NCBI RefSeq assembly: GCF_000403135.1
Contig: NZ_AQPN01000063.1
Span: 1 to 64,000, forward strand
From: Arcticibacter svalbardensis MN12-7
GTDB lineage: Bacteria > Bacteroidota > Bacteroidia > Sphingobacteriales > Sphingobacteriaceae
Direction: 5' to 3'
Length of the DNA: 64,000 nucleotides
The first letter of the stretch is position 1. Every line of letters starts with the position of its first letter. Both the position numbers and the translations under genes were made by a program. This document shows, in pieces, positions 44,859-61,253 of this stretch. The notes beneath the pieces were generated by a model. It saw only the letters and a program-made list of their open reading frames with translations, did not search any database and was not told where the DNA came from.

Positions 44859-44966
44859 TCGTTATAAAAGCTGTCGATGGAGAGGCTAAGTTAAATTTTT
44901 GTTTTTAATCAGCCTAATGTTCTATACGAATTGTTTTTAAACCTGATCGATGATATTGTGCATATA

Positions 44967-45009
44967 TGACCGGGATCAATTTTTTATAGGCAGGTGGTAT
45001 ATACCTTTG
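44967..45009 (+). promoter_or_regulatory. Promoter of the OFA transporter with CRP/FNR-type dyad
   Basis: -7 element TACCTTTG at 45002-45009. A TGA-N6-TCA dyad lies at 44967-44978 (TGACCGGGATCA), matching the FNR/FixK core TTGAY-N4-RTCAA at seven or more positions. Its centre (44972.5) is 36.5 bases upstream of the last base of the -7 element, the position expected for a class II activator. The same spacing recurs at 46350 and 60693. Confidence 0.65.
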
Positions 45010-45033
45010 TCTCATAATATCATTTTCATCAAT

Positions 45034-46302
45034 ATGAATTCAAAGAATAAATGGCTAATGGCATTAGCCGGAATGACTTTACAATTATCAATTGGGTCTA
45101 TCTACGCTTACAGTGTGTGGATTAAACCTATCGGATCTTTAAACGGCTGGGATGCCCATCAGTTAAAGTTCGCTTTTAGTCTTGCAATTTGCTTTTTAGG
45201 ACTTACCGCAGCCTTTATGGGTAGCTTTGTGAATAAGGTAGGACCGAAAAAAGCAGGAATAATCGGAGCTCTATTTTTTGGTACAGGGCTAGCAGTTGCC
45301 GGTTATGCAAATAGTATCGGCTCATTACCTCTTTTTTACTTATCTTACGGAGTGATAAGTGGTATTGGATTAGGCTTTGGCTATATCACACCGGTTTCGG
45401 TTGTGATTAAGTGGTTTCCTGATAAACCGGGATTCGCTTCAGGATTGGTAATTATGTCGTTTGCTGTCGGATCAGTGATTGCATCTCAGATTATCAATCC
45501 TATATCTACTAGTATAGGTGTACCCAATACTTTTTACACTTTAGCAATGACGTATTTCTTTTTCATGGTGATTGCATCTTTGTATTTGGAAAATCCAGCA
45601 TTACCAACAAGGGTCGAATTGGAAGATCCAACAATACCAACAGCTGTGGTCGATTATCATAGTGGTGGTTCTTCCGTACCAGCGTTTATTTTATTAAAAG
45701 ATGTCCGGTTTTATGGTTTGTGGTTTATGTTATTTTTGAATACCACATGCGGAATTGCATTGATAGCAGTAGCGGCTCCAATGGCTAAAGACATCATTCA
45801 TATCAGTGAAGCAGCGGCCATTGTGTTTGTCGGTTTCATCGGTTTATTCAATGGTTTAGGCAGGTTAATATGGTCCAGCGTATCCGATAAAATGGGTAGA
45901 TGGAATACCTTTATGAGCTTCTTTGTTATAGGAACTATTTGCTTTCTTATACTCAGCCAGACTCCTGGAGCAACCGTATTTTATATTGCAGTACTCGTAA
46001 TTATCAGTTGTTATGGTGGGGCTTTTTCTACAATTCCAGCATTTATTAAAGATATTTATGGATCAGATAAAATGGGTTCAGTGCTTGGATATGTATTGAT
46101 TGCATGGTCGGCAGCTGCCTTTGTAGGCCCTTGGTTAATTACTTTAAGTGATGATTATACCCGGATCTTCTATCTGTTTGCAGGTATTTTATTCACAACT
46201 TGTATCATGTCAATTGTTTTGAAAAATAAGATGGTGTCAAGGGATGACGAAGAAACAATTTGCGATACTGACAATAAAAACACTATATTGTTTGAAAATT
46301 AA
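45034..46302 (+). CDS. MFS transporter of the oxalate/formate antiporter (OFA) family
   Basis: 422 residues from the ATG at 45034 (MNSKNKWLMALAGMTLQL); the frame is open 28 codons upstream but that overlaps the promoter. Twelve membrane helices are predicted. Characteristic segments are GSIYAYSVWIKPI in helix 1 and GFGYITPVSVVIKWFPDKPGFASGL in helices 4-5, typical of OFA proteins that exchange oxalate, formate, lactate or pyruvate. It directly precedes pflB, with a separate promoter carrying the same putative low-oxygen box, so a role in formate or pyruvate/lactate traffic during fermentation is a reasonable inference. Confidence 0.9.
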   Translation: MNSKNKWLMALAGMTLQLSIGSIYAYSVWIKPIGSLNGWDAHQLKFAFSLAICFLGLTAAFMGSFVNKVGPKKAGIIGALFFGTGLAVAGYANSIGSLPLFYLSYGVISGIGLGFGYITPVSVVIKWFPDKPGFASGLVIMSFAVGSVIASQIINPISTSIGVPNTFYTLAMTYFFFMVIASLYLENPALPTRVELEDPTIPTAVVDYHSGGSSVPAFILLKDVRFYGLWFMLFLNTTCGIALIAVAAPMAKDIIHISEAAAIVFVGFIGLFNGLGRLIWSSVSDKMGRWNTFMSFFVIGTICFLILSQTPGATVFYIAVLVIISCYGGAFSTIPAFIKDIYGSDKMGSVLGYVLIAWSAAAFVGPWLITLSDDYTRIFYLFAGILFTTCIMSIVLKNKMVSRDDEETICDTDNKNTILFEN

Positions 46303-46349
46303 GCAAAATATTACTCACTTATTTATGAATATAGAATCATATTAATATG

Positions 46350-46392
46350 TGACCCGTATCATATTTATAAGTTGAAACATTAGTTAAATTTG
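46350..46392 (+). promoter_or_regulatory. Promoter of pflB with CRP/FNR-type dyad
   Basis: -7 element TAAATTTG at 46385-46392. TGACCCGTATCA (TGA-N6-TCA) occupies 46350-46361 inside a longer dyad (AATATG at 46344, CATATT at 46360-46365). Its centre, 46355.5, is 36.5 bases upstream of the end of the -7 element, exactly as at the OFA transporter promoter. The predicted leader is about 30 bases. Confidence 0.7.
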
Positions 46393-46429
46393 TTGTATCT
46401 AATAAGAACAACAGTAATTTTAAAAAATT

Positions 46430-48664
46430 ATGAAAACAGATGTCACAGCAATTCCATTTGAACAAGGAGAATGGAACTCAACATTAAACGTGTACAGTTT
46501 TGTTGTAAAAAACATTACTCCGTACACCGGAAATTCTTCCTTCCTATCCGGTCCTTCTGCAAAAACCATCAATGTATGGAATGCAACTAAGGAAGCACTT
46601 GCAATTGAAAGAGCTAACAATGGGGTTCTGGGAATAGACACAGAAGTAATTTCTAACATCACAGCCTTCAGGCCAGGATATATTAAAAAAGAAGATGAAG
46701 TAATTGTTGGTCTTCAAACTGACGTATTACTTAAAAGAGCATTGAAACCGTTTGGTGGTATCAAATTGGTTGAGTCTGCAGCAAGAGAACACGGAGTTGA
46801 AGTTTCAGACAGAATCAAGGATATCTTCAATTATGCAAAGAGTCACAATGAAGGTGTATTTAACGCATACGATCCTGAAATTCGCGCATACCGTTCAAAA
46901 CACGTATTAACAGGCTTACCTGATAATTACGCACGTGGACGTATCATTGGTGACTTCCGCCGTTTGGCCTTATATGGTGTAGATGCGTTAATCGCTTTCA
47001 AGAAAGCCGATTTCAAACAGGTTAGTGGAGAAATGACAGAACATAAAGTTCGGTTACGTGAAGAAATAAACTCTCAGATCGCTGCATTAAAGGATATCGT
47101 TTTAATGGCTGCTGAATATGGTTTAGATCTTTCTAAACCAGCAACTACTGGATTAGAAGCTGTTCAATGGGTATATTTCGGTTATCTTGCTGCTGTAAAG
47201 GAACAAGATGGTGCTGCAATGTCATTAGGTAATGTATCTTCATTCCTTGATATTTACATTGAAAGAGATTTAAAGAGCGGTTTAATTACTGAAGAAGAAG
47301 CTCAGGAAATGATAGATCAGTTTGTGATGAAACTAAGAATAGTTCGTCATTTACGTCCAAATTCTTATGATGAAATCTTCGGTGGAGATCCAACATGGGT
47401 TACTGAATCTTTAGGTGGTCAGTTAAACGACGGACGTACTAAGGTAACTAAGAACTCTTTCCGTTTCTTACAAACATTATACAACTTAGGATCATCTCCA
47501 GAACCAAATATAACTATCTTATGGTCTGAAGAATTACCAGAAGACTTTAAGAGGTTCTGTGCACAGGTATCTATCGATACTTCATCAATTCAATATGAAA
47601 ATGATGACTTGATGCGTCCTAATAGAGGTTCTGATGATTATGGTATTGCATGTTGTGTATCTTACCAGGAAATTGGTAAAGCAATTCAACACTTTGGAGC
47701 AAGAGCAAATCTTCCTAAGGCATTATTAATCTCTTTGAACGCAGGTAGAGAAGAACATGAAGGAACTGTAATGGTTAAGGGAATTCCTGAATTACCAGAA
47801 GGACCTTTAGATTATGATTTAGTATTGGATGTATTCAAGAGAACTTTAAGTGATCTTGCCCGTGTATATTCAAAAGCAATGTTTATCATTCACTACATGC
47901 ATGATAAATACTACTACGAAAGAGCACAGATGTCATTAATTGATTCTGATCCCCGTGTAGATATCGCTTATGGTGCTGCTGGTATTTCTATTATTGCCGA
48001 TTCATTAGCTGCAATTAAGTATGCTAAGGTTACTCCAGTAAGAAATGAAAAAGGCTTAACAGTTGATTTTAAGATTGAAGGAGAATATCCACAATATGGT
48101 AATGATGATGACCGTCCAGATACTATTGCTCAGGAAATCACTCATTTCTTTATCAATGAATTGCGTAAACATGAGACTTACAAAAACTCAACACCTACAC
48201 TTTCATTGTTAACCATTACATCAAATGTAATGTACGGAACATACACTGGTGCTACTCCTGATGGACGTAAATCTGGCGAACCATTTGCTCCAGGTGCAAA
48301 TCCAATGCATGGACGTGATAGCAGTGGTGCTATTGCATCATTAAACTCTGTAGCTAAGCTTAGATATACAGATGCTCAGGATGGTATTTCAAATACCTTC
48401 TCTATGATTCCAAAATCATTGGGAGATAATAAGGAAGAACAAACTACAAACTTGGTGAACACTATTGAAGGATACTTCAAACATATGGCTCATCACTTAA
48501 ATGTGAATGTTTTAAACCGTGAAACTTTGATGGATGCTTACAATCATCCAGAACAATATCCACAGTTAACCATTCGTGTTTCTGGATACGCTGTAAACTT
48601 TGTTCGTTTATCTCGTGCACATCAATTAGAGGTTATTTCTCGTACATTCCACGAAAGAATGTAA
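46430..48664 (+). CDS. pflB: Pyruvate formate-lyase (formate C-acetyltransferase)
   Basis: 744 residues. A glycyl-radical enzyme that splits pyruvate with CoA into acetyl-CoA and formate under anaerobic conditions. The two catalytic cysteines are adjacent in [13 protein letters not shown] (about residues 408-409), and the radical glycine is in the C-terminal [13 protein letters not shown] (about residue 719). Length is that of true PflB. The activating enzyme gene follows at 83 bases, behind a hairpin. Its presence shows fermentative or microaerobic capacity. Codon usage shows the bias of a highly expressed gene. Confidence 0.97.
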
Positions 48665-48686
48665 GTAATAATCAGTTTAAATATTG

Positions 48687-48718
48687 AAAGGGTCAGGTAT
48701 TTTTACGCCTGACCCTTT
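48687..48718 (+). terminator. Terminator or attenuator between pflB and pflA
   Basis: AAAGGGTCAGG (48687-48697) pairs with CCTGACCCTTT (48708-48718) around a 10-base loop, followed by a long T run. pflA begins 30 bases later. The hairpin would let pflB be made in excess over its activating enzyme, as is usual. Confidence 0.8.
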
Positions 48719-48747
48719 TTTTTCATTTATTTTTCACATCTTACAAC

Positions 48748-49533
48748 ATGTTGTATTTACCCTTACAGGATATCGAAGCTTCAAAATTGAATATTGATGA
48801 TCCTGAACATCTCCGCATCCACTCTCTTGAAACATTTGGAACACATGATGGTCCGGGAATACGGATGGTTATATTCGTTCAGGGCTGCCAGTTCCGCTGC
48901 CTGTATTGTCAGAATCCGGATACGCTTGATGTAAAAGCTGGAGAACTGATTGCCATTGATGAACTGGTACAAAGGGCTGTGAGGCAAAAAGCTTACTTCG
49001 GTAAATTTGGGGGAGTAACGGTATCAGGTGGTGAACCGCTTTTACAAAGAAGTAAACTCTCAACATTATTTCAGCGCCTGCATAAGGAAGGAATTAATAC
49101 CTGTCTGGATACAAATGGACGGCTGAATGATGCGCTGGTACATGAATTACTGGTACATACCGACGTGGTGATGCTGGATGTGAAACACATCAATGATGAG
49201 ATCCACCATAAGCTGACTGGGTTGACTAATAAAAATACGCTGGCATTGGCTGATTACTGCGAATCGATTGGAAAGAGATTGTGGCTGCGCTATGTTCTGG
49301 TTCCGGGATGGACCGATCAGGAAGAATATATTGAAGAATGGGGACAGCGTTTTACTAATTTTAAGACGGTAGAACGGGTAGAAATTATTCCATTCCATCA
49401 GCTTGGTTTGCATAAATGGGAGTTATTAAAAATGGAATATCCTTTGAAAGATACGCCCACTCCTACGGAGGAAAGTAAGCAGAAAACGCTCGCTATTTTT
49501 AATAAGTACTTTGATAATGTGATATTAAAATAG
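48748..49533 (+). CDS. pflA: Pyruvate formate-lyase activating enzyme (radical SAM)
   Basis: 261 residues. It uses a [4Fe-4S] cluster and SAM to create the glycyl radical on PflB. The cluster cysteines are Cys47, Cys51 and Cys54 in GCQFRCLYCQNPDT, preceded by the conserved ETFGTHDGPGIRMVIF. GGVTVSGGEPLLQ is the SAM-binding GGE motif. It is directly downstream of its target gene and shows no promoter of its own. Confidence 0.95.
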   Translation: MLYLPLQDIEASKLNIDDPEHLRIHSLETFGTHDGPGIRMVIFVQGCQFRCLYCQNPDTLDVKAGELIAIDELVQRAVRQKAYFGKFGGVTVSGGEPLLQRSKLSTLFQRLHKEGINTCLDTNGRLNDALVHELLVHTDVVMLDVKHINDEIHHKLTGLTNKNTLALADYCESIGKRLWLRYVLVPGWTDQEEYIEEWGQRFTNFKTVERVEIIPFHQLGLHKWELLKMEYPLKDTPTPTEESKQKTLAIFNKYFDNVILK

Positions 49534-49689
49534 GGTTTCTTTGCAGAGGAGTATTTACTTGGTATATTGATTACACCTTGCCATTCATTTGTGGGGGTTT
49601 ACTCTTATCAGGGAAGAAAGTTGCGTCTTCAAGCGCTTCCCTTACAGATTGACTCGTCCTCATGCCTTTGCTATCGAAAATAGAAAGTA

Positions 49690-49739
49690 CCCTTTATTGG
49701 ATACTGTTTGATATTTTTTAATATCTCGGCAATAAAGGG
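49690..49739. terminator. Nested hairpin terminator between pflA and lutC
   Basis: The outer stem CCCTTTATTG (49690-49699) pairs with CAATAAAGGG (49730-49739); inside it GATATT (49710-49715) pairs with AATATC (49720-49725) around four T. It lies between convergent genes. The 100 bases before it hold nothing recognisable. Confidence 0.65.
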
Positions 49740-49741
49740 AT

Positions 49742-50326
49742 TTAGCTCATTATAAAAACGGTCATACTTCTTGGACCATGTGCCCCAAGAACCAGGGATT
49801 GTTCAATATCAGCTGTTTTAGATGGCCCGGCAATGAATGCACCAAAACCTGTATTACTATTACCTAAAACCTGATAAGCTTCGTGCATATTAGAAACAAT
49901 ATCTTTTTTATATACAACCAAAGCAAGGTGCTGACAAATAAAGGGCAGCACACGTTGCATCATATTGAGTTCAGGTACCCATAAGGACCCATTCTCGGCA
50001 ACACCTAGCTGTGCTTTAAGAACAGCAAGTTCAGTATCTTCCAGAAGATGTGGGTTGATGACTTTGATATCTGTCTCAGCTATGGCAGCTAATTCTTCAA
50101 AGGATGAAATAATGCGTGCTGGTGCGGGAAACTGTTTCATTATTACTTCTTTGATCTGATCAAAGGTAATGACTTCAAAAATCTTGCTACCAATAGCAGT
50201 TGCAAGCGTCTTGAATTTTTCAACTGGATCAGCCTCTACAGATATAGGGCCCGCAAGAGAGGGCAATACGCTTAACTCCGGTTGATTTTCTCTTAACGCT
50301 GCTAATATTGAATTCCTGCTCGACAT
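49742..50326 (-). CDS. lutC: LutC/YkgG-type LUD-domain protein of lactate utilisation
   Basis: 194 residues, a single LUD domain. Conserved block GVAENGSLWVPE (about residue 115) and the C-terminal GPSKTADIEQSLVLGAHGPRSMTVFIM are typical. LutABC together oxidise L-lactate to pyruvate in the cytoplasm; LutC is a small subunit without clusters. It is separated from lutB by 200 bases containing a 66-bp imperfect tandem repeat, which is unusual for this operon. Intact, although lutA upstream is frameshifted. Confidence 0.93.
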   Translation of the reverse strand: MSSRNSILAALRENQPELSVLPSLAGPISVEADPVEKFKTLATAIGSKIFEVITFDQIKEVIMKQFPAPARIISSFEELAAIAETDIKVINPHLLEDTELAVLKAQLGVAENGSLWVPELNMMQRVLPFICQHLALVVYKKDIVSNMHEAYQVLGNSNTGFGAFIAGPSKTADIEQSLVLGAHGPRSMTVFIMS

Positions 50327-50392
50327 TTTTTAAAGTATTATATATTGAATAATTCTAATTTAAGAAATAAATAAAATTTATCTCTCCAAATG

Positions 50393-50524
50393 ATCTAACG
50401 AAGTATAGTTTGAATCCTGGTAATTGAGGAAACAATTTAGACCTTTTCTTAATGTATCATCTAACGAAGTATATTTTATATTCCTATTAATTCAGGAAAG
50501 AAATTAGATCTTTTCCCTGCTATT
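50393..50524. repeat. Imperfect tandem duplication of 66 bp between lutB and lutC
   Basis: ATCTAACGAAGTATA occurs at 50393-50407 and again at 50459-50473. The following bases also align (GAGGAAACAATTTAGACC against CAGGAAAGAAATTAGATC, both followed by TTTTC), giving two 66-base units with about three quarters identity. The second copy ends at the lutB stop codon. It looks like a local duplication of the lutB 3' flank. Confidence 0.7.
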
Positions 50525-50526
50525 AA

Positions 50527-51894
50527 TTAAGGTTTTTTTCTATTTTTTGAATACCATTCTCTAAAAGACTCCTTTGGAGGTTCTGGCATCTCTCGTTCTT
50601 TGTACCAGGGGTTTAACTTATTACTTACCATGGAAGGGAAGTTTTTCATAAACCAACGTCCTGATTTCCCAGCTACCTCAAATACGGTAGGATTAGCAAA
50701 GGTAAAAGCCATGGCTTTCATGCTTATAGCTTTAACGGGACTCACATAACCATCCTTCACCAATACCTGACGCCATTTATAGAGCTGCTCATGGATATCA
50801 ATTTTCACAGGGCATACATTGGAGCAAGAACCGCATAATGTAGAGGCAAATGGAAGATCTGCGTAATCTTTCATGTCCAGGTTGGGTGCTAGGATCGCTC
50901 CTATCGGTCCGCTAATAGCGGTATGGTAACTGTGACCGCCACTACGGCGATATACAGGACAGGTATTCATACAAGATCCGCAACGGATACATTTCAACGA
51001 ATTACGAAAGTCTGCGCGCCCTAACTGACGGCTTCGTCCATTATCTACCAGGATAATGTGCATCTCCTGGCCTTCGCGTGGTTTCATGAAATGACTGGAG
51101 TAAGTTGTAATAGGCTGTCCGGTTGCACTTCGTGTGAGCAGGCGTAAAAAGACACCCAGGTGTTGACGTTCAGGGATAATCTTTTCTATACCCATAGAGG
51201 CAATATGCACCTCAGATAGATGGGCACCCATGTCCGCATTACCTTCATTGGTACAAACAACAAATTCCCCTGTTTCAGCTACTGCAAAATTAACTCCTGT
51301 AAGTGCTACTTTACGGGTCATGAAAGTTTCACGTAAATGTTGACGTGCCGCTTCAGTAAGTACCTGAGGATCGGATTCACCAGCTGCTGTACCTAAGAAC
51401 TCATGAAATAAGTCGCCTATTTCTTCCTTCTTTTTATGGATACAAGGCAGCACAATATGACTTGGCGCTTCATTGGCAAGCTGAACAATGCGCTCCCCTA
51501 AATCAGAATCAATTACTTCAATTCCATTGCCAGTGAGGAAATCATTTAAATGACATTCCTCGGTCAGCATCGATTTACTCTTCACCATGCGATCTACCTG
51601 ATGTTTTTTCAAGATAGATAACACGATGTCATTATGCTCCGCAGCGTTGGCAGCCCAATGGACTTTAACACCGTTTGCTTGTGCATTTAATTCAAATTGC
51701 TCCAGGTAAACACTAAGATTGGAAAGTACATTATTCTTAATCTGTGATCCTGTTTCCCTCAACCACTCCCATTCAGGAATGGTATGAACAGCCTTATCGC
51801 GTTTCTCTCTGATGAACCATAGCGTTTCATCATGCCAATCCACACGGGGTTCATCCTTATTAAATTCTTCAGATAGTTCAGCGTGATCCTTCAT
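50527..51894 (-). CDS. lutB: LutB-type iron-sulfur LUD-domain protein of lactate utilisation
   Basis: 455 residues. An N-terminal LUD domain (about 60-300; GVNFAVAETGEFVVCTNEGN) is followed by a ferredoxin-like region with two cysteine clusters (CIRCGSCMNTCPVYRR and CGSCSNVCPVKI) that bind [4Fe-4S] centres, and a basic C-terminal tail. With LutA and LutC it oxidises L-lactate to pyruvate. Its ATG overlaps the end of lutA by four bases, which indicates translational coupling. The gene is intact although lutA is not. Confidence 0.95.
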   Translation of the reverse strand: MKDHAELSEEFNKDEPRVDWHDETLWFIREKRDKAVHTIPEWEWLRETGSQIKNNVLSNLSVYLEQFELNAQANGVKVHWAANAAEHNDIVLSILKKHQVDRMVKSKSMLTEECHLNDFLTGNGIEVIDSDLGERIVQLANEAPSHIVLPCIHKKKEEIGDLFHEFLGTAAGESDPQVLTEAARQHLRETFMTRKVALTGVNFAVAETGEFVVCTNEGNADMGAHLSEVHIASMGIEKIIPERQHLGVFLRLLTRSATGQPITTYSSHFMKPREGQEMHIILVDNGRSRQLGRADFRNSLKCIRCGSCMNTCPVYRRSGGHSYHTAISGPIGAILAPNLDMKDYADLPFASTLCGSCSNVCPVKIDIHEQLYKWRQVLVKDGYVSPVKAISMKAMAFTFANPTVFEVAGKSGRWFMKNFPSMVSNKLNPWYKEREMPEPPKESFREWYSKNRKKP

Positions 51895-52624
51895 ATTCCA
51901 TTTAAAATCTCTGCGATATGCACAACTTTAACATTACTTTTTTGCCTATGCAGTATACCTTCCATATGCATAAGACAGGATAAATCGGCACTTGTAATAT
52001 ACTCGGCACCATGTTTAATATGATCGGCAACACGATCTTTGCCCATTTTAGAGGAAACCGCTTCTTCAGCCACGCAAAAGGTGCCGCCGAAACCACAGCA
52101 TTCATCTGTACGATCGAGATCTACCAGTTCCAACCCATCAACCATACTTAATAGCTGATTGGGCTTAGAGAATGCCGGAGCAACTAGTTCTGTCATCTGG
52201 GATAGATGAAGGCCCCTCAGTCCATGACAGCTCTGATGAACACCTACCCGGTAAGGAAACTTCGCATTCAGCTTTTTAACCTGTAAGATGTCAGTTAAAA
52301 CTCAACTAATTCATATACCTTTTTACGTAAGCCTTTTGCAGATTCAGGGTGTTTATCTGAATGCAGATGTTCTTTCAAATGCAAAGTACAACTGCCGGAG
52401 GGAACAACGACGTAATCGAACTCTTCAAAGAGCTCAGTAAATAAATCGTCACATCCTCCAGTGAGATGCGAAAACCCTGAATTGGCCATTGGCTGACCGC
52501 AACAAGTCTGCTTTTTAGGATACACGACATCCACGCCCAATTTCTCCAGCAACTGTAATGTTGCAATGGCTGCATTGGGGTAGAATTGATCTACGTAACA
52601 AGGAATGAATAATCCTACGGTCAT
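51891..52624 (-). pseudogene. lutA: LutA-type Fe-S oxidoreductase subunit, one-base frameshift
   Basis: Two pieces cover one gene. The first (52624 down to 52295) encodes MTVGLFIPCYVDQFYP to KKVYELVEF, with the first CCG motif (TCCGQPMANSGF). The second continues in the next frame with LTDILQVKKLNAKFPYRVGVHQSCHG and the second CCG motif (DECCGFGGTF), ending at 51891. Adding one base to the A4 run at 52297-52300 (TTTT on the coding strand) restores a 244-residue protein, the usual LutA length. The initiation codon overlaps the kinase stop (ATGA). Either a real null mutation or a sequence error. Confidence 0.9.
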
Positions 52625-53966
52625 AATACGAGTTCTGAGGCTGAATAAAAATTTAAATCAATAATATTGGTAGCTAAAGATTTACTGTTCCAATGTTTAT
52701 GTATAGCCAGCGCTGCTCCGATCGAGGTAGCCTGAGCTACGGATGCGGCAAAAACTTCCATTTCAGGAAAAGCTGATGCCAGCAATTGCATATATATCGG
52801 GTTTTTACTAAACCCTCCGTCTACAAAAATACGTTTCACATTTGTGCCTTCAAGTACCAGTTTACTGGCCTGAGTTTGCATATCATCAAATCAATAATCA
52901 ATTGATGATATGCATCTTCGGCAGAAACAAAGGTCTTCAAATCTCTGGACTCAAATCCTGAAGCTAAAAGATCTCCTGATTGTGTCGTGATATGAACATC
53001 TTGCTGTTGTTTATGTAGGCGATTTAAGCTCTCCATATTGTATTTTAATTTCTTATAAAAGTCTGCTGGTTTATTAAAGTGCTAAGATATCTTTTTTGTT
53101 TGTTGTTCATGTTCGTTTCCAGCAAAAAGCCTTGAGGCCTTAACGGGATTACCCTTATAACTGATATAACACAAACAATCTTTTTTTAATTCATCCTCTG
53201 TGAGTGGCAATTGGTTGAAAGGATTCAGACTTACACACCATGTGCCTGTAGAAAGCAGCATAAAGGGTTCCTGAAAACTGGCAAGAAAAGGAATTAACGC
53301 AGCAGAACTGTCATGTAATCCAATGCCTGCATAACGGATTTTCCATTTTTCAGGCAGGGCTGCATAAACTTTCTGTAAACTTTCTAATGTATTTTCGAAT
53401 GCTCTTTTAAAGCTTAGCTGTCCGGGGAAACAAGATCCATCAGCCAACCATACAGTTAGTGATTCAGAACCCAGATCAACACCGTACTTGATCGCTTCAA
53501 TATTATGCTCAATGGCCTGACGGCGAACTGCTTTATCCACATGTTGCATAGAGTCAAACTTATAGCTCTTTTTCTGACCGGGTTGATCTTGAAAAGTATT
53601 GGAATTCATGGCGTCGAAACGCCGGCCATGTTGAGCAGCAAGCACTTTGGTAGCCTGAATATTTTCGGGGATATCCCAGGGACTATGAAGTGAGATAGCA
53701 CCACTTGATTGATTTAACTGCTGAAGTACGCCAATATCTTCAATCTTTTCTTCCAGACTTCTTGGTTCGCCACCTCCTGAGAAACGCGCGAAACGTGTTC
53801 CTCCTGTACCAAGAGCCCAACTTGGAATAGCAATTCGAAACTTCATCAGCTTCGCTATGATATTCTCTGTACCCTCGAGATCCTGAGATAAAAATTCAGA
53901 TTTTCTTTGGTGCAATTGAGCCAATTTACTATTGTGTTCCTCAATCTGATACCTCTCAATTTTCAT
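52621..53966 (-). pseudogene. Fused remnant of L-rhamnose isomerase (5' half) and rhamnulokinase-like FGGY kinase (3' half)
   Basis: The frame from 53966 starts as a RhaI-type sugar isomerase (MKIERYQIEEHNSKL, IAIPSWALGTGGTRF, AMNSNTFQDQP, VWLADGSCFPGQ) to about residue 210. It then changes without a break into the middle of an FGGY kinase (AGIGLHDSSAALIPFLASF, LLSTGTWCVSLNPF, RLFAGNEHEQ). An in-frame TAG (53082-53084) interrupts it. The same frame continues HFNKPADFYKKLKYNMESLNR to YHQLIIDLM, where a missing base near 52884 shifts it. The rest (KRIFVDGGFSKNPIYMQLL...) is in the next frame to 52621. An internal deletion of roughly 1.4 kb is inferred. Both enzymes are lost. Confidence 0.9.
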
Positions 53967-54042
53967 ATACTATGGTTTTAAAGAGGGCTTCAGCATACAT
54001 ATAAATGAATGAACCAACTGAAGCCCTTAATATATTTGGTTT

Positions 54043-56160
54043 TTATCTCACAAATGCCATTGCAACACCCCCATCAACATTAAGCACGTTCCCTGTTGAC
54101 TTGTTTAATAAACCACCTACCAGTACAAAACATGCGTTAGCAATGTCGTCAGGTAAAATGATTTTATTAAGCAGTGTACGTTTAGCATAATACGCTGGTA
54201 ATTCGGCAACTGTAACACCGTATGCTTTCGCACGGCCTTCAGCCCATCCGCTTTCCCAGATTTTACTATCAGAAATAACAGCATCAGGATTAACGACGTT
54301 AACACGGATACCATCACCTCCTAATTCAGCAGCATTTAATCTGCTAAGGTGTAACTGTGCTGCTTTAGCAGATCCATAACCGGCATTGTTCGGTCCGGAT
54401 ACCAACGCATTTTTACTTACTATATTGATTACATCGCCACCTAAAGCTTGCTTACGCATTACTTCAAGTCCTTTTTGAGTAACCAGGAACTGACCTTTAA
54501 CCAATACATCATATAAAATGTCCCAATCTTTTTCAGTATGATCTTCAATAGGTTTTGAAATGGATAATCCAGCACAATTTACGATAATATCTACACCTCC
54601 AAAAGCTAAAGCAGCCTCATTATAGGCATTTACTATTTTTTCTGAATCGGTTACATCTAATAATACCGCAGCAAAAGCATCTTTACCAAACTGGGTATTA
54701 AATTCTGTTCTTGCCGATTCTAATCTGTTTGAATCATTATCATTAATTACCACTACACCGCCTTCATCAATAAAGCGTTTTGCAGTTGCCTTTCCGATAC
54801 CTCCCGCACTACCAGTGATCAAAGCGATACGACCGGATAGAGGTTTTGGTTTAGGCTGTCGGGAAAGCTTTGCTTCCTCCAATAACCAATATTCAATATC
54901 AAATGCTTCCTGACGGGGCAAAGAGGTATATTCTGATACCGCTTCAGCACCTTTCATCACATTTATAGCATTGGTATAAAACTCAGCCGCTACACGAGCA
55001 GTTTGTTTATCCTTAGAAAAAGTAAACATTCCTACACCCGGATATAAAACTACTACCGGATTAGAATCGCGGATAGCAGGACTATTTTCATGTTTACAGT
55101 TATCGTAATATGCCTTATACATATGACGGTAAGCTTCAAATGCCGGAGTCAACTTTTCTTTTAAATCGTCTATATCAGCAAGATTGGCATTCGCTTCCAG
55201 TTCTAATACAAGAGGGCTGATTTTGGTACGAAGAAAATGATCAGGACAGCTTGTTCCCATAGGGGCTAAGCGATCTAAATCCTTTGAGTTAATAAACTCA
55301 AGTACGCGTGCATCATCGGTAAAGTGACCGATCATATGGCGTTCGCTTGAACAGAATCCTCTTAAAACAGGGGCAATTGCTGCGGCTTGTCTTTTACGGC
55401 CATTAGCGTCAAGGCTTTCAATATGCTGTCCACCAAATACAGGACCCTTTTTACCGTAATTCTGGTCCAAATATTCAGCTGAAGCTTCAATAATTTCAAG
55501 ACTATTGATATAACAGTCGTATGCGGTATCTCCCCAGGTAAATAATCCATGAGAACCTAACATGATTCCACGGATACCCGGGTTTTCTGCCAGACATTGT
55601 TTTAACTGTAATCCCAGATCAAAACCTGGTTTCTGCCAATCAACCCAACCAATAGTTCCTTTAAATAACTCTTGTGTGATTTTCCTACCATCTTTTGCTG
55701 CTGCAATTGAAATAGCCGCATCTGGATGAAGATGATCAATATGTTTAAAAGGGAGGAATCCATGCAGAGGAGTGTCGATAGAAGGGGCCTTCGACTTTAA
55801 GTCAAAGATACAATGATTGAACAATTCAACCATTTCATCTTCCTGTTCAATTCCTTTGTATACGTTTTCAAGACTTCTTAAACGATCTACATAAAGGCCG
55901 GCAAGTCCGCTACGTTTTAAAGTACCGATGTCACCACCAGATCCTTTAATCCACATCACTTCGGTTTTACCACCTGTTATTGGATCTTTTTCAATTGTCT
56001 TGCAAGAGGTATTACCCCCTCCATAATTAGTTAGTCGCAGGTCTGCACCAAGCAAATTTGACCTGTAAATGAGTAATGCTACTTCATCGCCTGCGAGCTT
56101 TGCCGCTACACTATCTTCCCATAGATAGTTGACGTGTTTAAATTCTTTTACGATAGACAT
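54043..56160 (-). CDS. Bifunctional rhamnulose-1-phosphate aldolase / lactaldehyde dehydrogenase (aldolase plus short-chain dehydrogenase)
   Basis: 705 residues. Residues about 20-390 form a class II aldolase/adducin-like domain (LTNYGGGNTSCK, DTPLHGFLPFKHIDHLHPDA with zinc histidines, MLGSHGLFTWG). Residues about 430-705 form a short-chain dehydrogenase with GRIALITGSAGGIGKATAKRF, the NAG-type INCAGLS and the catalytic Y-x-x-x-K in AGYGSAKAAQ. This fusion splits L-rhamnulose 1-phosphate into DHAP and L-lactaldehyde and oxidises the aldehyde to L-lactate, which LutABC would take on to pyruvate. It is intact although isomerase, kinase and transporter genes around it are broken. Confidence 0.93.
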   Translation of the reverse strand: MSIVKEFKHVNYLWEDSVAAKLAGDEVALLIYRSNLLGADLRLTNYGGGNTSCKTIEKDPITGGKTEVMWIKGSGGDIGTLKRSGLAGLYVDRLRSLENVYKGIEQEDEMVELFNHCIFDLKSKAPSIDTPLHGFLPFKHIDHLHPDAAISIAAAKDGRKITQELFKGTIGWVDWQKPGFDLGLQLKQCLAENPGIRGIMLGSHGLFTWGDTAYDCYINSLEIIEASAEYLDQNYGKKGPVFGGQHIESLDANGRKRQAAAIAPVLRGFCSSERHMIGHFTDDARVLEFINSKDLDRLAPMGTSCPDHFLRTKISPLVLELEANANLADIDDLKEKLTPAFEAYRHMYKAYYDNCKHENSPAIRDSNPVVVLYPGVGMFTFSKDKQTARVAAEFYTNAINVMKGAEAVSEYTSLPRQEAFDIEYWLLEEAKLSRQPKPKPLSGRIALITGSAGGIGKATAKRFIDEGGVVVINDNDSNRLESARTEFNTQFGKDAFAAVLLDVTDSEKIVNAYNEAALAFGGVDIIVNCAGLSISKPIEDHTEKDWDILYDVLVKGQFLVTQKGLEVMRKQALGGDVINIVSKNALVSGPNNAGYGSAKAAQLHLSRLNAAELGGDGIRVNVVNPDAVISDSKIWESGWAEGRAKAYGVTVAELPAYYAKRTLLNKIILPDDIANACFVLVGGLLNKSTGNVLNVDGGVAMAFVR

Positions 56161-56178
56161 ATGTATTTTTTATTTAAT

Positions 56179-56720
56179 TTATTTTAAGGAGTTCCCATGC
56201 CCCACTACCAATACTGATATTACAATTACCAAAATTCCAGAAAGCACCGTAGCATATGTTTTCTTACTTACAAACTTCCATTCTTTTAACACAATACTCC
56301 AAACATTGGCAACCAAAATAATGAATGCCATGTGTAAAATCCAAGAACTTGGTCCTTTACCTAATCTACTTTCACCCATTCCGTAAAAGAAGAACTGAAG
56401 AAACCAGGTTAATCCAACCAAGGCAGAGCATATTATATTACGAAGAATAGGCGTATTTTTATTGGTATAATCTCCAAAATTCTTATTCCTCGCATTTAAT
56501 ATCATACACCAAATAAAGTTAGTTGTTAATCCACCTCAAAGTATAACAACATAGGTTACATTATTCTGAAACAGGAATTCACCCTGACCAGGATTAGCAC
56601 TTTCCAAATTTCATTAGCCGCTTCGGCCATTGGCTTTCCAGCTTCTAATGCGAAATTAAAACAGGCACTTAATACCCCCGAAATAATGGCTACTGTAAGG
56701 CAAGTCCTATATTTAGGGTT
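56179..56720 (-). pseudogene. rhaT: Remnant of the L-rhamnose/H+ symporter RhaT (3' part only)
   Basis: The last 108 codons (56505-56179) read as the C-terminus of RhaT (GLTWFLQFFFYGMGESRLG, SSWILHMAFIILVANVWSIVLKEWK, four membrane helices). Upstream the same frame continues (QNNVTYVVIL, GGLTTNFIWC) but a TGA (56536-56538) replaces the Trp codon of the conserved LLWGG. Further up a one-base loss near 56599-56606 shifts to a frame reading VAIISGVLSACFNFALEAGKPMAEAANEIWK. Nothing rhaT-like is seen beyond about 56720, so roughly the first half of the gene is missing. It is 18 bases upstream of the aldolase-dehydrogenase gene. Confidence 0.88.
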
Positions 56721-57013
56721 AAAAAATTAGTTTAGCTAAAACTAACTATAACGGACAGTACATCTGTCATGCACTGTCATGTAGAAAATACACTTTTCTT
56801 TTCAATACAGTACATGAACTAATAACTATGAGTCAAATTCAGAATACCGATTGATTGAAATTTCCTGCATGCTTGCTCCAATACAGAACTGTTGTGATAA
56901 ATTTAGAACTAGTAGTATCCTATAGAAATTTTTTGCGCTACTGTCTAAATCCAGTTAATGCACATTGCTTGAATTTAAGCAAAGGCGAATATCTATAGTA
57001 TAAACCGAAACTT
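56721..57013. other. Gene-free flank upstream of the rhaT remnant
   Basis: About 290 A/T-rich bases with no recognisable reading frame. CTGTCATG is repeated at 56764-56771 and 56774-56781. The missing 5' half of rhaT would have started to the right of this region, so a deletion endpoint probably lies here. Confidence 0.4.
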
Positions 57014-57562
57014 CTAGTTTATTTCTTCCTCCACGCTTCCGCAAGAGCTCATTTGATCGCCATAGTAGGGGTTTTTGATAGTTGATTCGCTTGCCAACCA
57101 GTAGCCTCCCTCTCCATTGTTTGCCATAGGGCAAAATTGCTTATATACAATTCCGGATGAGAGTTTCGATGCTTTAATAATCTTCTCAACCTCTGCACTT
57201 AGAGGAGTTAGTAAGCCACGCTGTACTTCCAAAGAAGGTGCATTTGCCATTTTATTTGAGAGGTCTATGCCTTTTGGACTAGCTACTGCAGTCAATGCTG
57301 TCTTTAGTGTCTGTGCTGCCAATTTCACCTGTCTCACATTGGCGTTAAACACTGCATTCTTTAACAGAATATAACTGCTGTAAACCTGTTTAACTTTTGA
57401 ATCGCTGAATACAGGCTGAACACTCTGGATCGATTTGCTGTTACTGGTTTCTGCAGCAGGAGTACTTTGATTTGTTTTAGTATCTGAAGAACAGGCTACC
57501 AGAGTAATAAATACCATAAAAGCCAAAGACATCAGCGTTTTTACAAAATAATTTCTTTTCAT
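57014..57562 (-). CDS. DUF3347 lipoprotein
   Basis: 182 residues. The signal peptide ends in a lipobox (TLVACSSD, Cys about residue 24). The DUF3347 domain (about 55-175) has the conserved end VYKQFCPMANNGEGGYWLASESTIKNPYYGDQMSSCGS. This domain occurs alone or on periplasmic adaptors of heavy-metal (copper/silver) efflux systems and carries Cys, Met and His-like residues suited to metal binding. It faces the same way as a Cys-rich HYC_CC_PP-like gene 310 bases upstream, a pairing that supports a copper-related role; this is inference. Confidence 0.88.
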   Translation of the reverse strand: MKRNYFVKTLMSLAFMVFITLVACSSDTKTNQSTPAAETSNSKSIQSVQPVFSDSKVKQVYSSYILLKNAVFNANVRQVKLAAQTLKTALTAVASPKGIDLSNKMANAPSLEVQRGLLTPLSAEVEKIIKASKLSSGIVYKQFCPMANNGEGGYWLASESTIKNPYYGDQMSSCGSVEEEIN

Positions 57563-57871
57563 GTTTGTTTATTTTATTCGATATAAATTGAAAGCATAGG
57601 AATCAGCTTAATCTTATTAGGTTTATCACCCAGTGATTGCCCCGGCAAATTAGGTTAATTCGTATTTTAGAAAGGATAAAAGAGTATCATTTTTACTTAG
57701 GAAATAAATTAGCGGTTCAAAATTTACGGATAAGCTTTAAGAACAAAAAACAGATCCATTAAAAAGCAAATTGATTGCTTAGTGACAACCAGCTTCTTAT
57801 GACCACATGAAGTGTTTTCGTCTTTTTCAAAACATCCTTTGAAATCGCTAACTAATATAGAAACGGGAATT
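57563..57871. other. Gene-free stretch of about 310 bases
   Basis: A/T-rich. It must contain the promoter of the DUF3347 gene, but no TAnnTTTG element or hairpin stood out on the minus strand. Confidence 0.4.
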
Positions 57872-58300
57872 CTATATTTTAAATTGTCGGAAGAGTATAT
57901 TAAGTGGTTCTTGATACCAAAGAATGGTGTAAGGTTTTACTTTAACTTCAACATGTTCGGAAGAGCCGAACCAATTATTAAACAGGGATTGAATTAAATA
58001 AAGAACAGGCATCGATTGGCTGCGTATAGGCATCTTTTCTCCAGAACTCTGCATATTAGCAGGATTGGAGATTTTCTGATTGTAACAGCAGCTCTTACTG
58101 GTTACAGAAGAAGCGGGTACATTATTCTGAGTGTGGCCTTTTGCGCTTTTTTTGTGTATTTGACACCCTTTAGATTCGGCAAAAAAATTGATCCCTTTTA
58201 TTTTACCACAGCAATGGTGAACAGAAATAGTAAATCCACTAGCTGAGATAATAATTATCAGAGCCAAAATTTGAAAACCAATTCTTTTAATTAATTGCAT
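57872..58300 (-). CDS. Small Cys-rich exported protein, HYC_CC_PP-like
   Basis: 142 residues. An N-terminal hydrophobic segment (about 8-26) is followed by VHHCCGKIKG, a single Cys-Gln-His (GCQIH), a Cys pair (SKSCCYNQ) and a C-terminal aromatic/basic end WYQEPLNILFRQFKI. The arrangement resembles the small HYC_CC_PP proteins of Bacteroidetes that lie near copper efflux and DUF3347 genes, though the PP motif here is reduced to EP. Probable metal binding in the periplasm is inferred from the cysteines and histidines. Confidence 0.65.
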   Translation of the reverse strand: MQLIKRIGFQILALIIIISASGFTISVHHCCGKIKGINFFAESKGCQIHKKSAKGHTQNNVPASSVTSKSCCYNQKISNPANMQSSGEKMPIRSQSMPVLYLIQSLFNNWFGSSEHVEVKVKPYTILWYQEPLNILFRQFKI

Positions 58301-58380
58301 TTGGATACAAAAATAATAATATACATTAGTTTATAGTATAATATATGCCAGTTATTTATCTTTTAAATGGTGCGAAAGCT

Positions 58381-58408
58381 TTGTGATATTATTAATTTAT
58401 TACTTTTG
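58381..58408 (+). promoter_or_regulatory. Promoter of the FixL-like kinase operon
   Basis: TTG (58381-58383) and TACTTTTG (58401-58408) are 17 bases apart, close to consensus. Unlike the promoters at 44967, 46350 and 60693, no TGA-N6-TCA is present at the corresponding position, so the regulator does not appear to activate its own operon. Confidence 0.6.
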
Positions 58409-58434
58409 ATGAGAATCAAGGTATATTTTTTCAA

Positions 58435-59649
58435 ATGAATGATGCAACCCTTTTACATGCTATTATAGAAAATGCCATTGATGGCATTATTACGATTGAC
58501 AAAAAAGGGATTGTTGAATCCATTAACCCATCTGCTTGCCGACTATTTGGATATATTCCAGATGAAGTAATAGGCAATAATATATCCATGCTCATGGCGG
58601 AACCTGATCATTCCCGACATGATCAGTACCTACATCGTTACAATACAACAAGGGAGCGGCACATCATTGGGATAGGCAGAGAAGTAAAGGGGTTACGAAA
58701 AAACGGCACTCAGTTTCCCTTCCGCTTAGGTGTAAGCGAAGTGATTCTGTCAGACCGAACCATCTATACCGGTTTTGTTAATGATCTTAGCCGTGAAAAA
58801 GCAGCAGAGGAAAGGATTAAAAACCATGCCGCACAATTAGAAGAATTGGTAGAAGAGCGTACTGCGTCATTAAGAAAGACGGTTCGTGCATTACAGGAAG
58901 CGAAGGAAGAAGTGAGTTTATCTTTGGAAAAAGAAAAGGAATTAAGTCAGCTTAAAAGCAGGTTTGTTTCGATGGCTTCACATGAGTTCCGGACTCCATT
59001 GAGTTCGGTTCAACTATCAGCATCCCTGATAGAGAAATATTCGCAGCAGGAAGATCCAACCAATATTACCAAGCATGTAAATAAGATCAAAAATGCTGTA
59101 GGTAATTTAACCGCCATATTGAATGATTTCCTTTCCCTCGAAAAACTCGAGGCCGGACGAGTTGAACCGACTTACACACACTTTGACGTAGTCAAATTAT
59201 CGGAAGAGATTACTGAAGAGATGCAAATGATAACTAAGCAAAACCAAAATATCATTTATGAACATACGGGACTGACCAGTATGGTTATCCTGGACCAGAA
59301 TCTACTTAAAAATTGCATCATCAACTTAATTACCAATGCAATTAAATACTCCGGAGAGAACACCTTTATAGAATTTAATTCAGAAGTAACAGAAGAAGAA
59401 TACATATTAACCGTTAGGGATAATGGTATTGGCATCCCCGATGCAGATCAAAAACACTTGTTTCAACCATTTTTCCGTGCTCATAATACAGGAAATATTC
59501 CAGGTACTGGATTAGGACTTAATATTGTAAGGCGCTATGCCGGTTTAATGAACGGCAAGGTTGAGTTTGAAAGTATTATAAATAAAGGAACTACATTTAC
59601 TATATCTTTTTCTTCAAATAATGAAAAAAACATCCATTCTTATAATTGA
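58435..59649 (+). CDS. FixL-like oxygen-sensing histidine kinase with heme-PAS domain
   Basis: 404 residues. A PAS domain (about 5-120) is followed by a coiled coil (about 125-175) and a histidine kinase: DHp box FVSMASHEFRTPLSS, N box NLITNAIKYSG, G boxes DNGIGIP and GTGLGLNIV. There is no membrane segment, so it is cytoplasmic. The PAS domain keeps the heme-pocket residues of rhizobial FixL: His62 (in SRHD, heme ligand), Arg68, His76 and Arg82 (in IIGIGR). Their spacing equals that of H200, R206, H214 and R220 of Bradyrhizobium FixL. It probably senses O2 by heme. The gene overlaps its response regulator by 29 bases. Confidence 0.92.
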   Translation: MNDATLLHAIIENAIDGIITIDKKGIVESINPSACRLFGYIPDEVIGNNISMLMAEPDHSRHDQYLHRYNTTRERHIIGIGREVKGLRKNGTQFPFRLGVSEVILSDRTIYTGFVNDLSREKAAEERIKNHAAQLEELVEERTASLRKTVRALQEAKEEVSLSLEKEKELSQLKSRFVSMASHEFRTPLSSVQLSASLIEKYSQQEDPTNITKHVNKIKNAVGNLTAILNDFLSLEKLEAGRVEPTYTHFDVVKLSEEITEEMQMITKQNQNIIYEHTGLTSMVILDQNLLKNCIINLITNAIKYSGENTFIEFNSEVTEEEYILTVRDNGIGIPDADQKHLFQPFFRAHNTGNIPGTGLGLNIVRRYAGLMNGKVEFESIINKGTTFTISFSSNNEKNIHSYN

Positions 59650-60673
59650 GGATAATGATGATATCCGTGAAAGCACTACGGAGATTTTAGAACTAGCAAA
59701 CTATACTGTATTTCATGCAAACAATGGGAAAACCGGCGTGGAATTAGCTGTTAAGCACCTGCCTGATATCATTTTATGTGATATCATGATGCCGGAGCTA
59801 GACGGATACGGAGTACTGTTTATGCTAAATAAAACACCGGAAACATCAACTATCCCCTTCATATTTTTAACAGCAAAAGCAGAAAGAATTGACATGCGAA
59901 AAGGCATGGAAATGGGCGCTGATGACTATCTTACTAAACCATTTGATGACGTTGAATTACTTAACGCCATTGAAAGCAGGCTAAATAAAAGAGATAAACA
60001 AGAAGCTTTCTATAACAAATCTTTAGAAAAACTTGACAATCTGGTTGGACGGGGCGATGGTCTTGCAGAACTGCAAAAACTTGTAGCCGATCGTAAAATC
60101 AGGACTGTAAAGAAAAAACAAGTCATCTATTATGAAGGAGATAGTCCCTCAGGCCTTTATTTAATTTTAAATGGCAAGGTAAAGACATTCAAATTAAGTA
60201 ATGATGGCAGAGAGCTACTCACATCCATTTATGGGCCAGATGAGTATATTGGTGTCAATGCACTGCTTTCCAATGATGTTTATCATGAAACATCAGAAGC
60301 AGTAGAGGATACTTCCATATGCATGCTTCCAAAAGAAATGATCGATCAGCTGGTTAATCATTATCCGCAAGTAGGACGCGCCTTTATAAAAATCCTTTCA
60401 AACAATTTGAAAGAAAAGGAAGATCAGTTACTGCAACTGGCATACCATTCCGTTAGAAAAAGAATGGCTCAGGTTCTTCTCCGTCTGGCAGGAACTGACC
60501 CGGAAAAAGGTGTATTACGGATTTCCAGAGATGACCTCGCTGCGATGGCAGGAATGGCTACTGAAACAGTAAGTCGTACTTTAAGTGATTTTAAAGATGA
60601 AGGCCTGATAGAAAAAAAAGGCAGCCAGATAATCATTTTAAACGCAACAAAATTAATAAACATGAAAAACTGA
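59621..60673 (+). CDS. Response regulator fused to a CRP/FNR-type DNA-binding module
   Basis: 350 residues in three parts. Residues 1-125 are a receiver (phospho-acceptor Asp54 in ILCDIMMPELDG, Lys106 in LTKPF). Residues about 150-265 are a cyclic-nucleotide-binding-type beta barrel (KKKQVIYYEGDSPSGLYLIL), without the Cys cluster of FNR. Residues about 275-345 are a Crp winged helix with recognition helix AGMATETVSRTLSDF. In rhizobia FixJ (receiver plus LuxR helix) turns on fixK (CRP type); here the two are one protein. Target boxes are proposed at three nearby promoters. It is translationally coupled to the kinase. Confidence 0.93.
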   Translation: MKKTSILIIEDNDDIRESTTEILELANYTVFHANNGKTGVELAVKHLPDIILCDIMMPELDGYGVLFMLNKTPETSTIPFIFLTAKAERIDMRKGMEMGADDYLTKPFDDVELLNAIESRLNKRDKQEAFYNKSLEKLDNLVGRGDGLAELQKLVADRKIRTVKKKQVIYYEGDSPSGLYLILNGKVKTFKLSNDGRELLTSIYGPDEYIGVNALLSNDVYHETSEAVEDTSICMLPKEMIDQLVNHYPQVGRAFIKILSNNLKEKEDQLLQLAYHSVRKRMAQVLLRLAGTDPEKGVLRISRDDLAAMAGMATETVSRTLSDFKDEGLIEKKGSQIIILNATKLINMKN

Positions 60674-60692
60674 CCAAAGTCATTTTCTTGCC

Positions 60693-60735
60693 TGATTTCC
60701 CTCATTCCAAGTTACAACTCTCATTCTTATCTTTG
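60693..60735 (+). promoter_or_regulatory. Promoter of the LDH-like/hemN operon with CRP/FNR-type dyad
   Basis: -7 element TATCTTTG at 60728-60735. TGATTTCCCTCA (TGA-N6-TCA) lies at 60693-60704, with its centre (60698.5) exactly 36.5 bases upstream of the end of the -7 element. The same geometry is found before the OFA transporter gene and pflB. An outer CTTG/CAAG pair (60687, 60708) extends the dyad. Confidence 0.65.
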
Positions 60736-60770: not shown

Positions 60771-61253
60771 ATGAGAGCCGTAGCATACAGTATAAGGTCC
60801 TTTGAAAAGGAGCCACTGGCAAAAGCCAATCATAAGAAACACGAAATCACATTGATATCAAATGAACTTGGTATTGAAACAGCCGAATATGCTACTGGAA
60901 AAGAGGTTGTTATAATCTCTGACAAAGATAAAGTTACATTAGACGTTATAGAAAAACTTGCTGCTTTAGGAATTAAATTTATTACAAGCAGATCTTTAAC
61001 CCTTGAACATATAGATGAAAAAGCTGCTGCTTTACATGATATAAAACTTGCTTCAATATCTGTATCCAATGCAGATTCAGCGACAATGGATGCTAAATCA
61101 TTCTATTCTAAGATCGCTAATGACACCATTCACAATCTGGATTATTGGCAAAACACAAAATGCAACGGAGATAGTTGTACCATTTCACAGGATTGCGAAA
61201 GTCATATCATTGCAGGTGAGTTTCAGAGCCGAATAGATCAAAATCCTGCATAA
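60771..61253 (+). CDS. Stand-alone D-lactate-dehydrogenase-like N-terminal domain protein
   Basis: 160 residues from the ATG at 60771 (MRAVAYSIRSFEKEPLAKAN); the frame extends nine codons further but over the promoter. Residues 1-100 resemble the first (substrate) domain of D-lactate dehydrogenases (KHEITLISNELGIETAEYA, KEVVIISDKDKVTLDVIEKLAALGIKFI, HIDEKAAALHDI). No NAD-binding Rossmann domain follows: it ends with a short Cys-rich tail (CNGDSCTISQDC). It cannot be a complete dehydrogenase. It overlaps the hemN start by one base and sits downstream of a putative low-oxygen box, so a role in anaerobic physiology is inferred. Confidence 0.8.
   Translation: MRAVAYSIRSFEKEPLAKANHKKHEITLISNELGIETAEYATGKEVVIISDKDKVTLDVIEKLAALGIKFITSRSLTLEHIDEKAAALHDIKLASISVSNADSATMDAKSFYSKIANDTIHNLDYWQNTKCNGDSCTISQDCESHIIAGEFQSRIDQNPA

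Follow-up and report, generated by a model that had tools for sequence, protein, structure and literature searches.

What reads a TGA-N6-TCA dyad that recurs upstream of genes suited to low oxygen in a 64,000-nucleotide stretch of Arcticibacter svalbardensis MN12-7 (the window; positions 1 to 64,000 of contig NZ_AQPN01000063.1, RefSeq assembly GCF_000403135.1)? Each dyad precedes a -7 element of the form TAnnTTTG, and the spacer is defined here as the base pairs (bp) between the end of the dyad and that element, with a proximal class at 23 and a distal class at 45. The promoters and the OFA, pfl, kinase, REC-CRP, ldh and hemN genes of the window lie on the forward strand. Read directly from the sequence, the dyad TGACCGGGATCA (44967 to 44978) stands before the -7 element TACCTTTG (45002 to 45009) upstream of an OFA-type transporter gene; TGACCCGTATCA (46350 to 46361) before TAAATTTG (46385 to 46392) upstream of pflB; and TGATTTCCCTCA (60693 to 60704) before TATCTTTG (60728 to 60735) upstream of an ldh/hemN pair. 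All three proximal dyads have a spacer of 23 bp, and their centres lie 36.5 bases 5' of the final G of TAnnTTTG, matching to the base the coordinates and centring given in a preliminary description of the window. If transcription is assumed to start about 5 bases after TAnnTTTG, this centre falls at -41.5, the class II position. At the third promoter that description found the dyad at 60693 and missed the stronger of two: TGACCAAAGTCA (60671 to 60682), exactly 22 bp 5' of the proximal dyad (spacer 45, about -63.5) and kept in relatives, the left TGA of which is the stop codon of the gene for a receiver-CRP protein (REC-CRP). The pflB promoter carries a distal half-site, ATCA (46336 to 46339), with its own TCA exactly 22 bp 5' of that of the pflB dyad; ATCA[C/T] occurs at about the same place in other near relatives.

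Could three such matches to a short palindrome, recognised after the fact, be a coincidence? The window contains 66 TAnnTTTG elements on both strands and has a GC content of 38.6%, at which TGA-N6-TCA has a probability of 1 in 3025 (against an earlier figure of 1 in 4096 per fixed position). Thus, 0.022 matches are expected at one fixed spacer, against 3 found. At spacers of 22 to 24, no further dyad was present at any other window promoter; the preliminary description had reported none at the same offset in six other promoters. Since the motif was picked after looking, which is what speaks for coincidence, independent tests matter. Spacing peaks in the own genome, the family and the class, together with the footprints of four promoters, refute that explanation, to which we leave a negligible probability.

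The own genome, a draft of 4,687,695 bases, was examined by pattern scans and in selected stretches, with the spacer histogram as the control of choice, a reversed-pattern control being crude. The stricter form TGAY-N4-RTCA occurred 10 times at spacers 22 to 24, compared with 12 occurrences over 23 other spacers (Poisson p ~6e-6). Sites at spacers 44 to 46, from a second scan, precede ccoN of the cbb3 oxidase (C63:68446-68510), ldh/hemN (60671) and a universal stress protein gene; the ldh/hemN and ccoN promoters have dyads at both positions, with spacers of 23 and 45. The box also stands before pflB, OFA, UspA, ScdA/hemerythrin and iPGM (phosphoglycerate mutase), and the genes 3' of own-genome sites comprise ccoN, UspA, iPGM, a polysaccharide export gene, ThrE and a cluster with DUF2249, iron-sulfur assembly, ScdA/hemerythrin and Rrf2 genes. 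The genome-wide enrichment at low-oxygen genes on which the preliminary description had staked its reading is therefore present, at ccoN, ldh/hemN, pflB, OFA, UspA, ScdA/hemerythrin and iPGM, and the 23-bp spacing is kept across the class; its target set of OFA, pflB and ldh/hemN stands and gains the ccoN promoter, which had been overlooked. Dyads at C8:47708, C104:21293 and C104:27128, which overlap coding sequence or lie far from a start, were dropped as targets. Other spacings were also seen: a dyad at spacer 39 (23+16) lies 5' of a DUF2249 gene (C12:34981-35039), with the same spacing in genomes G041 and G020, and in OFA promoters the main dyad is preceded, at about 16 bp, by a second, weak one.

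Within the Sphingobacteriaceae, 80 REC-CRP neighbourhoods contained 71 TGA-N6-TCA matches at spacer 23 and 82 at spacer 45, with 0 to 3 at most spacers, although most of these belong to one orthologous promoter, that between REC-CRP and ldh/hemN. An ungapped alignment of 57 non-redundant copies of this promoter revealed conservation of the two dyads, of TTTT after the first and of TAnnTTTG, with a variable linker. Rows entered the alignment on the strength of a TGA-N6-TCA at 45 together with an exact TAnnTTTG; the invariance of the distal TGA and TCA and of TAnnTTTG hence follows from the selection, and the distal left TGA doubles as the REC-CRP stop codon; the proximal dyad was unselected. 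In the window, the T-run directly 3' of the distal dyad (60683 to 60688) shows almost the same degree of conservation as the dyad across the 57 promoters (alignment columns 14-16). The ccoN promoter provides a case independent of ldh/hemN. The dyad is present in 44 of 45 loci, and in 39 non-redundant copies chosen by the distal dyad alone, a proximal RTCAY follows exactly 22 bp after that dyad and the -7 element, mostly TAATTTTA, keeps the same 22-bp and 57-bp register.

pflB is present in 13 of 201 family genomes (14 genes). Of these 14 loci, 10 (the window's own included) have TGAY-N4-RTCA at a spacer of exactly 23, as do 9 of 13 outside the window genome. The middle bases of these dyads vary (CCGT, GCCA, GAAG, CAAA, AACG, GCGA, GCAG, TATA, TTTC). 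Similarly, in each of the six genomes examined (that of the window included) the dyad of the OFA promoter stands at spacer 23, while its middle bases differ. Scans for RTGAYN4RTCAY gave, among the 150 matches listed for 61 family genomes, 39 at spacer 23 and 16 at 45 against about 2 per background spacer, and, among the 150 listed for 80 class genomes, 47 at spacer 23, 19 at 24 and 11 at 45; both sets of matches are ordered by genome and are hence samples. Other families of the class likewise have tandem 45/23 dyads 3' of REC-CRP. The identical distance first described is thus exact for the three window sites and a sharp peak, not an absolute rule, as spacers of 22 and 24 also occur. Taken together, these patterns make it almost certain that the dyads are real CRP/FNR-type operators.

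Whether the sites serve activation or repression cannot be told from sequence, and REC-CRP or another CRP-family protein might act as a repressor at these sites. Their location 5' of the -7 element, at about -41.5 and -63.5, argues against this, as does the lack of any separate conserved -33 box between dyad and -7 in the 57 ldh/hemN and 39 ccoN promoters, which fits an activator-dependent promoter; we regard repression as improbable.

Which protein, then, reads the operators as an activator? REC-CRP (59621 to 60673) consists of a receiver (PF00072, E 1.4e-27; phospho-acceptor aspartate in DIMMP), a cyclic-nucleotide-binding-type domain (PF00027, E 1.7e-19) and HTH_Crp (PF13545, E 6e-19; helix ATETVSR), and so belongs both to the CRP/FNR superfamily and among the response regulators. 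It is 99% identical to its counterpart in Arcticibacter eurypsychrophilus, and 80 of 80 orthologues have the DIMMP phospho-acceptor and the ETVSR recognition helix unchanged. None of the best 60 PDB matches was a chain covering both halves. The recognition helix of FNR likewise contains E and SR. The half-sites average AAAARTGAY, and the purine before TGA lies between the G of CRP sites and the T of FNR sites. For CRP/FNR regulators, Glu181 has been paired with A6 of the site (PMC1274295), a rule that REC-CRP follows; its residue 180 is T. Sites at spacers 22 to 24 amount to 1.09 per megabase (Mb) where REC-CRP is present (36 genomes), 2.11 where only FNR is (10 genomes) and 0.33 where both are missing (15 genomes), control densities being 0.13-0.36. 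In many Pedobacter, dyads also lie 5' of the operon encoding REC-CRP and its partner kinase. Because of these own-operon sites in relatives, synteny, the tracking of the gene by site density and the FNR-like recognition helix, we favour REC-CRP, which is probably the reader of the dyads here. Many Mucilaginibacter (loci L068-L093) have two dyads about 65 bp apart 5' of the same operon, at about -97 and -32 from the start.

The own genome encodes four HTH_Crp proteins above the cut-off, and the recognition helices of C69:1619 (YETLFR) and C116 also display an E...R pattern; the operators might thus be genuine and be read by another CRP-family protein, above all C69:1619. Yet genomes that possess a C69-like protein and lack both REC-CRP and FNR (G011, G027, G034, G040, G048) have only about 0.33 sites per Mb, whereas those in which REC-CRP is the sole match to the FNR query, or which have no match (G017), have 0.69 (41 sites versus 17 in genomes with neither; p = 0.005, kinship ignored). 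That relatives carry sites before the REC-CRP operon itself, and that the promoter following it has them too, likewise argues against such a reader, which we consider unlikely.

Several observations weigh against REC-CRP, under the control of its partner kinase, as the reader of these sites. A number of own-genome matches lie away from obvious gene starts. The comparison of site density with gene content counts related genomes as independent; G035, without REC-CRP, has 0.87 sites per Mb, and G002 and G022, with it, have none. In the window species the kinase promoter lacks a dyad, and autoregulation of the kinase and REC-CRP there was rejected on that ground. The same sites are found in FNR-only genomes (G004, for instance, has the pflB dyad at spacer 23), so that the reader cannot be identified from the motif by itself. 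Lastly, outside close relatives the PAS domain of the partner kinase keeps a histidine at the FixL ligand position and not the R220 equivalent; FixL-type sensing may therefore hold only in this lineage, and the idea that partner kinases throughout the class bear a FixL signature was rejected.

The distribution of FNR offers a way to accommodate the shared sites. Other genera of the family have an FNR with four cysteines, for the most part in genomes lacking REC-CRP, and the two proteins occur together in only 2 of 46 genomes having either (Fisher p = 0.001, kinship ignored). This largely exclusive distribution suggests that one replaced the other within the family on unchanged operators. G004, which has FNR, lacks REC-CRP and retains the pflB dyad at 23, suggests a common operator with an exchanged reader. 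In genus g11 (locus L213, G010:C73), the REC-CRP layout is mirrored around a true FNR gene, with the same dyad promoter and a gene for a ccoI-like P-type ATPase coming after it.

What would REC-CRP respond to? The PAS histidine kinase gene directly before it (58435 to 59649) encodes a protein whose PAS domain finds FixL structures (1dp6 and others, E 1.2e-29) as its best PDB matches. Residues H62, R68, H76, I77 and R82 align with the FixL heme pocket, the numbering of which we take to be H200/R206/H214/I215/R220. H62, at the heme ligand, and R82, the R220 equivalent, are retained in 80 of 80 kinases, and the residues aligned to R206, H214 and I215 in 67, 61 and 80 of 80, respectively. The kinase thus has the ligand histidine and pocket residues of FixL, and oxygen control of the FixL type is fairly likely. 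The preliminary description had recognised the receiver-CRP protein and missed the FixL nature of its partner. A kinase in the C12 cluster lacks the FixL motif and was rejected as a FixL type.

Our preferred reading, which we hold to be likely as a whole, is that the dyads are CRP/FNR-family activator operators at about -41.5, with additional ones at about -63.5, and that their reader, REC-CRP, is phosphorylated by the FixL-like kinase and switches on low-oxygen genes. Binding, activation, heme and oxygen sensing and phosphotransfer, which we infer, would connect the observed sites, spacing, conservation, gene associations and domain and residue content as follows. At low oxygen the heme-PAS kinase would phosphorylate the receiver, and phosphorylated REC-CRP would bind RTGAY-N4-RTCAY as a dimer at the class II position; some promoters would take up another dimer two helical turns (22 bp) further upstream. 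Bound REC-CRP would then turn on genes for the cbb3 oxidase, ldh/hemN, pyruvate formate lyase and the adjoining transporter, iron-centre repair and stress. Such a circuit would amount to FixL-FixJ-FixK with FixJ and FixK merged in one protein.

Like the FixL-FixJ-FixK system of rhizobia (also hFixL-FxkR-FixK, PMC7888657), that of the window species has a (predicted) heme-PAS oxygen sensor kinase and CRP/FNR-type operators 5' of cbb3 oxidase genes and a hemN-like gene. It differs in that receiver and CRP-type DNA-binding halves are in one protein, with no FixJ and no separate FixK, and in having Bacteroidota -7 promoters and fermentation genes among its targets. REC-CRP is neither a FixJ, since its output is HTH_Crp and not of the LuxR/NarL type, nor a FixK, as it possesses an N-terminal receiver. 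With the FNR regulon and class II FNR/CRP promoters it shares a TGA-N6-TCA operator centred near -41.5 (on the assumed start) and anaerobic genes (pflB, hemN, oxidase, usp); unlike FNR, it has no 4Fe-4S cysteine set, its only two cysteines lying in CDIMM and ICMLP, and its control would be by phosphorylation. HcpR proteins are likewise of the CRP/FNR family and pair Glu181 with A6, but their regulon centres on hcp, with motifs wTGTGAnnnnnnTCACAw and TTGACnnnnGTCAA, and GTAACnnnnGTTAC for Bacteroides HcpR2 (PMC1274295). In Flavobacterium psychrophilum, cbb3 and heme genes are induced at low oxygen (PMC9723704), which fits the proposed regulon and does not test it.

Among openly licensed PMC papers we found no description of REC-CRP or FixL in Bacteroidota, nor of low-oxygen gene switching in Bacteroidia. 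Each part is known elsewhere; what is new is the proposed combination, in which a FixL-type kinase and REC-CRP would replace FNR on tandem class II operators. REC-CRP-type regulators occur in 74 of 149 sampled class genomes. For low-oxygen genes in Bacteroidia, the system defines an operator and a fixed promoter geometry and puts forward a candidate regulator; it also offers a natural example of one regulator, REC-CRP, apparently replacing another, FNR, on unchanged operators. We lean slightly towards a broader view, in which phosphorylation-controlled REC-CRP would have taken over FNR operators in much of the Bacteroidia, driven in Sphingobacteriaceae by a FixL-type heme kinase, so that two proteins would stand in for the three-tier FixL-FixJ-FixK cascade and act directly on class II and tandem operators of microaerobic genes.

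The OFA-type major facilitator superfamily transporter gene (45034 to 46302) begins at MNSKNKWLMAL, 3' of its promoter; the mechanical open reading frame start at 44950 is too early. It is followed by pflB (46430 to 48664), a glycyl-radical pyruvate formate lyase (PF02901, PF01228), and by a radical SAM activase gene (48748 to 49533) named pflA by neighbourhood. Downstream of REC-CRP lie a truncated D-2-hydroxyacid dehydrogenase gene (60771 to 61253), encoding only the N-domain of D-LDH followed by a Cys-rich tail, and a gene for a hemN-type protein (61253 to 62620), radical SAM by domain, its name being drawn from sequence and neighbourhood. Gene spacing after REC-CRP (loci L031-L110) suggests a short ldh in many Pedobacter and a full-length form in many Mucilaginibacter. 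The lactate/rhamnose cluster (50527 to 56505) contains short or split open reading frames, namely two CCG frames (51891-52196 and 52295-52624), a RhaT C-terminal fragment (56179-56505) and a short FGGY kinase, which may be pseudogenes or draft frameshifts.

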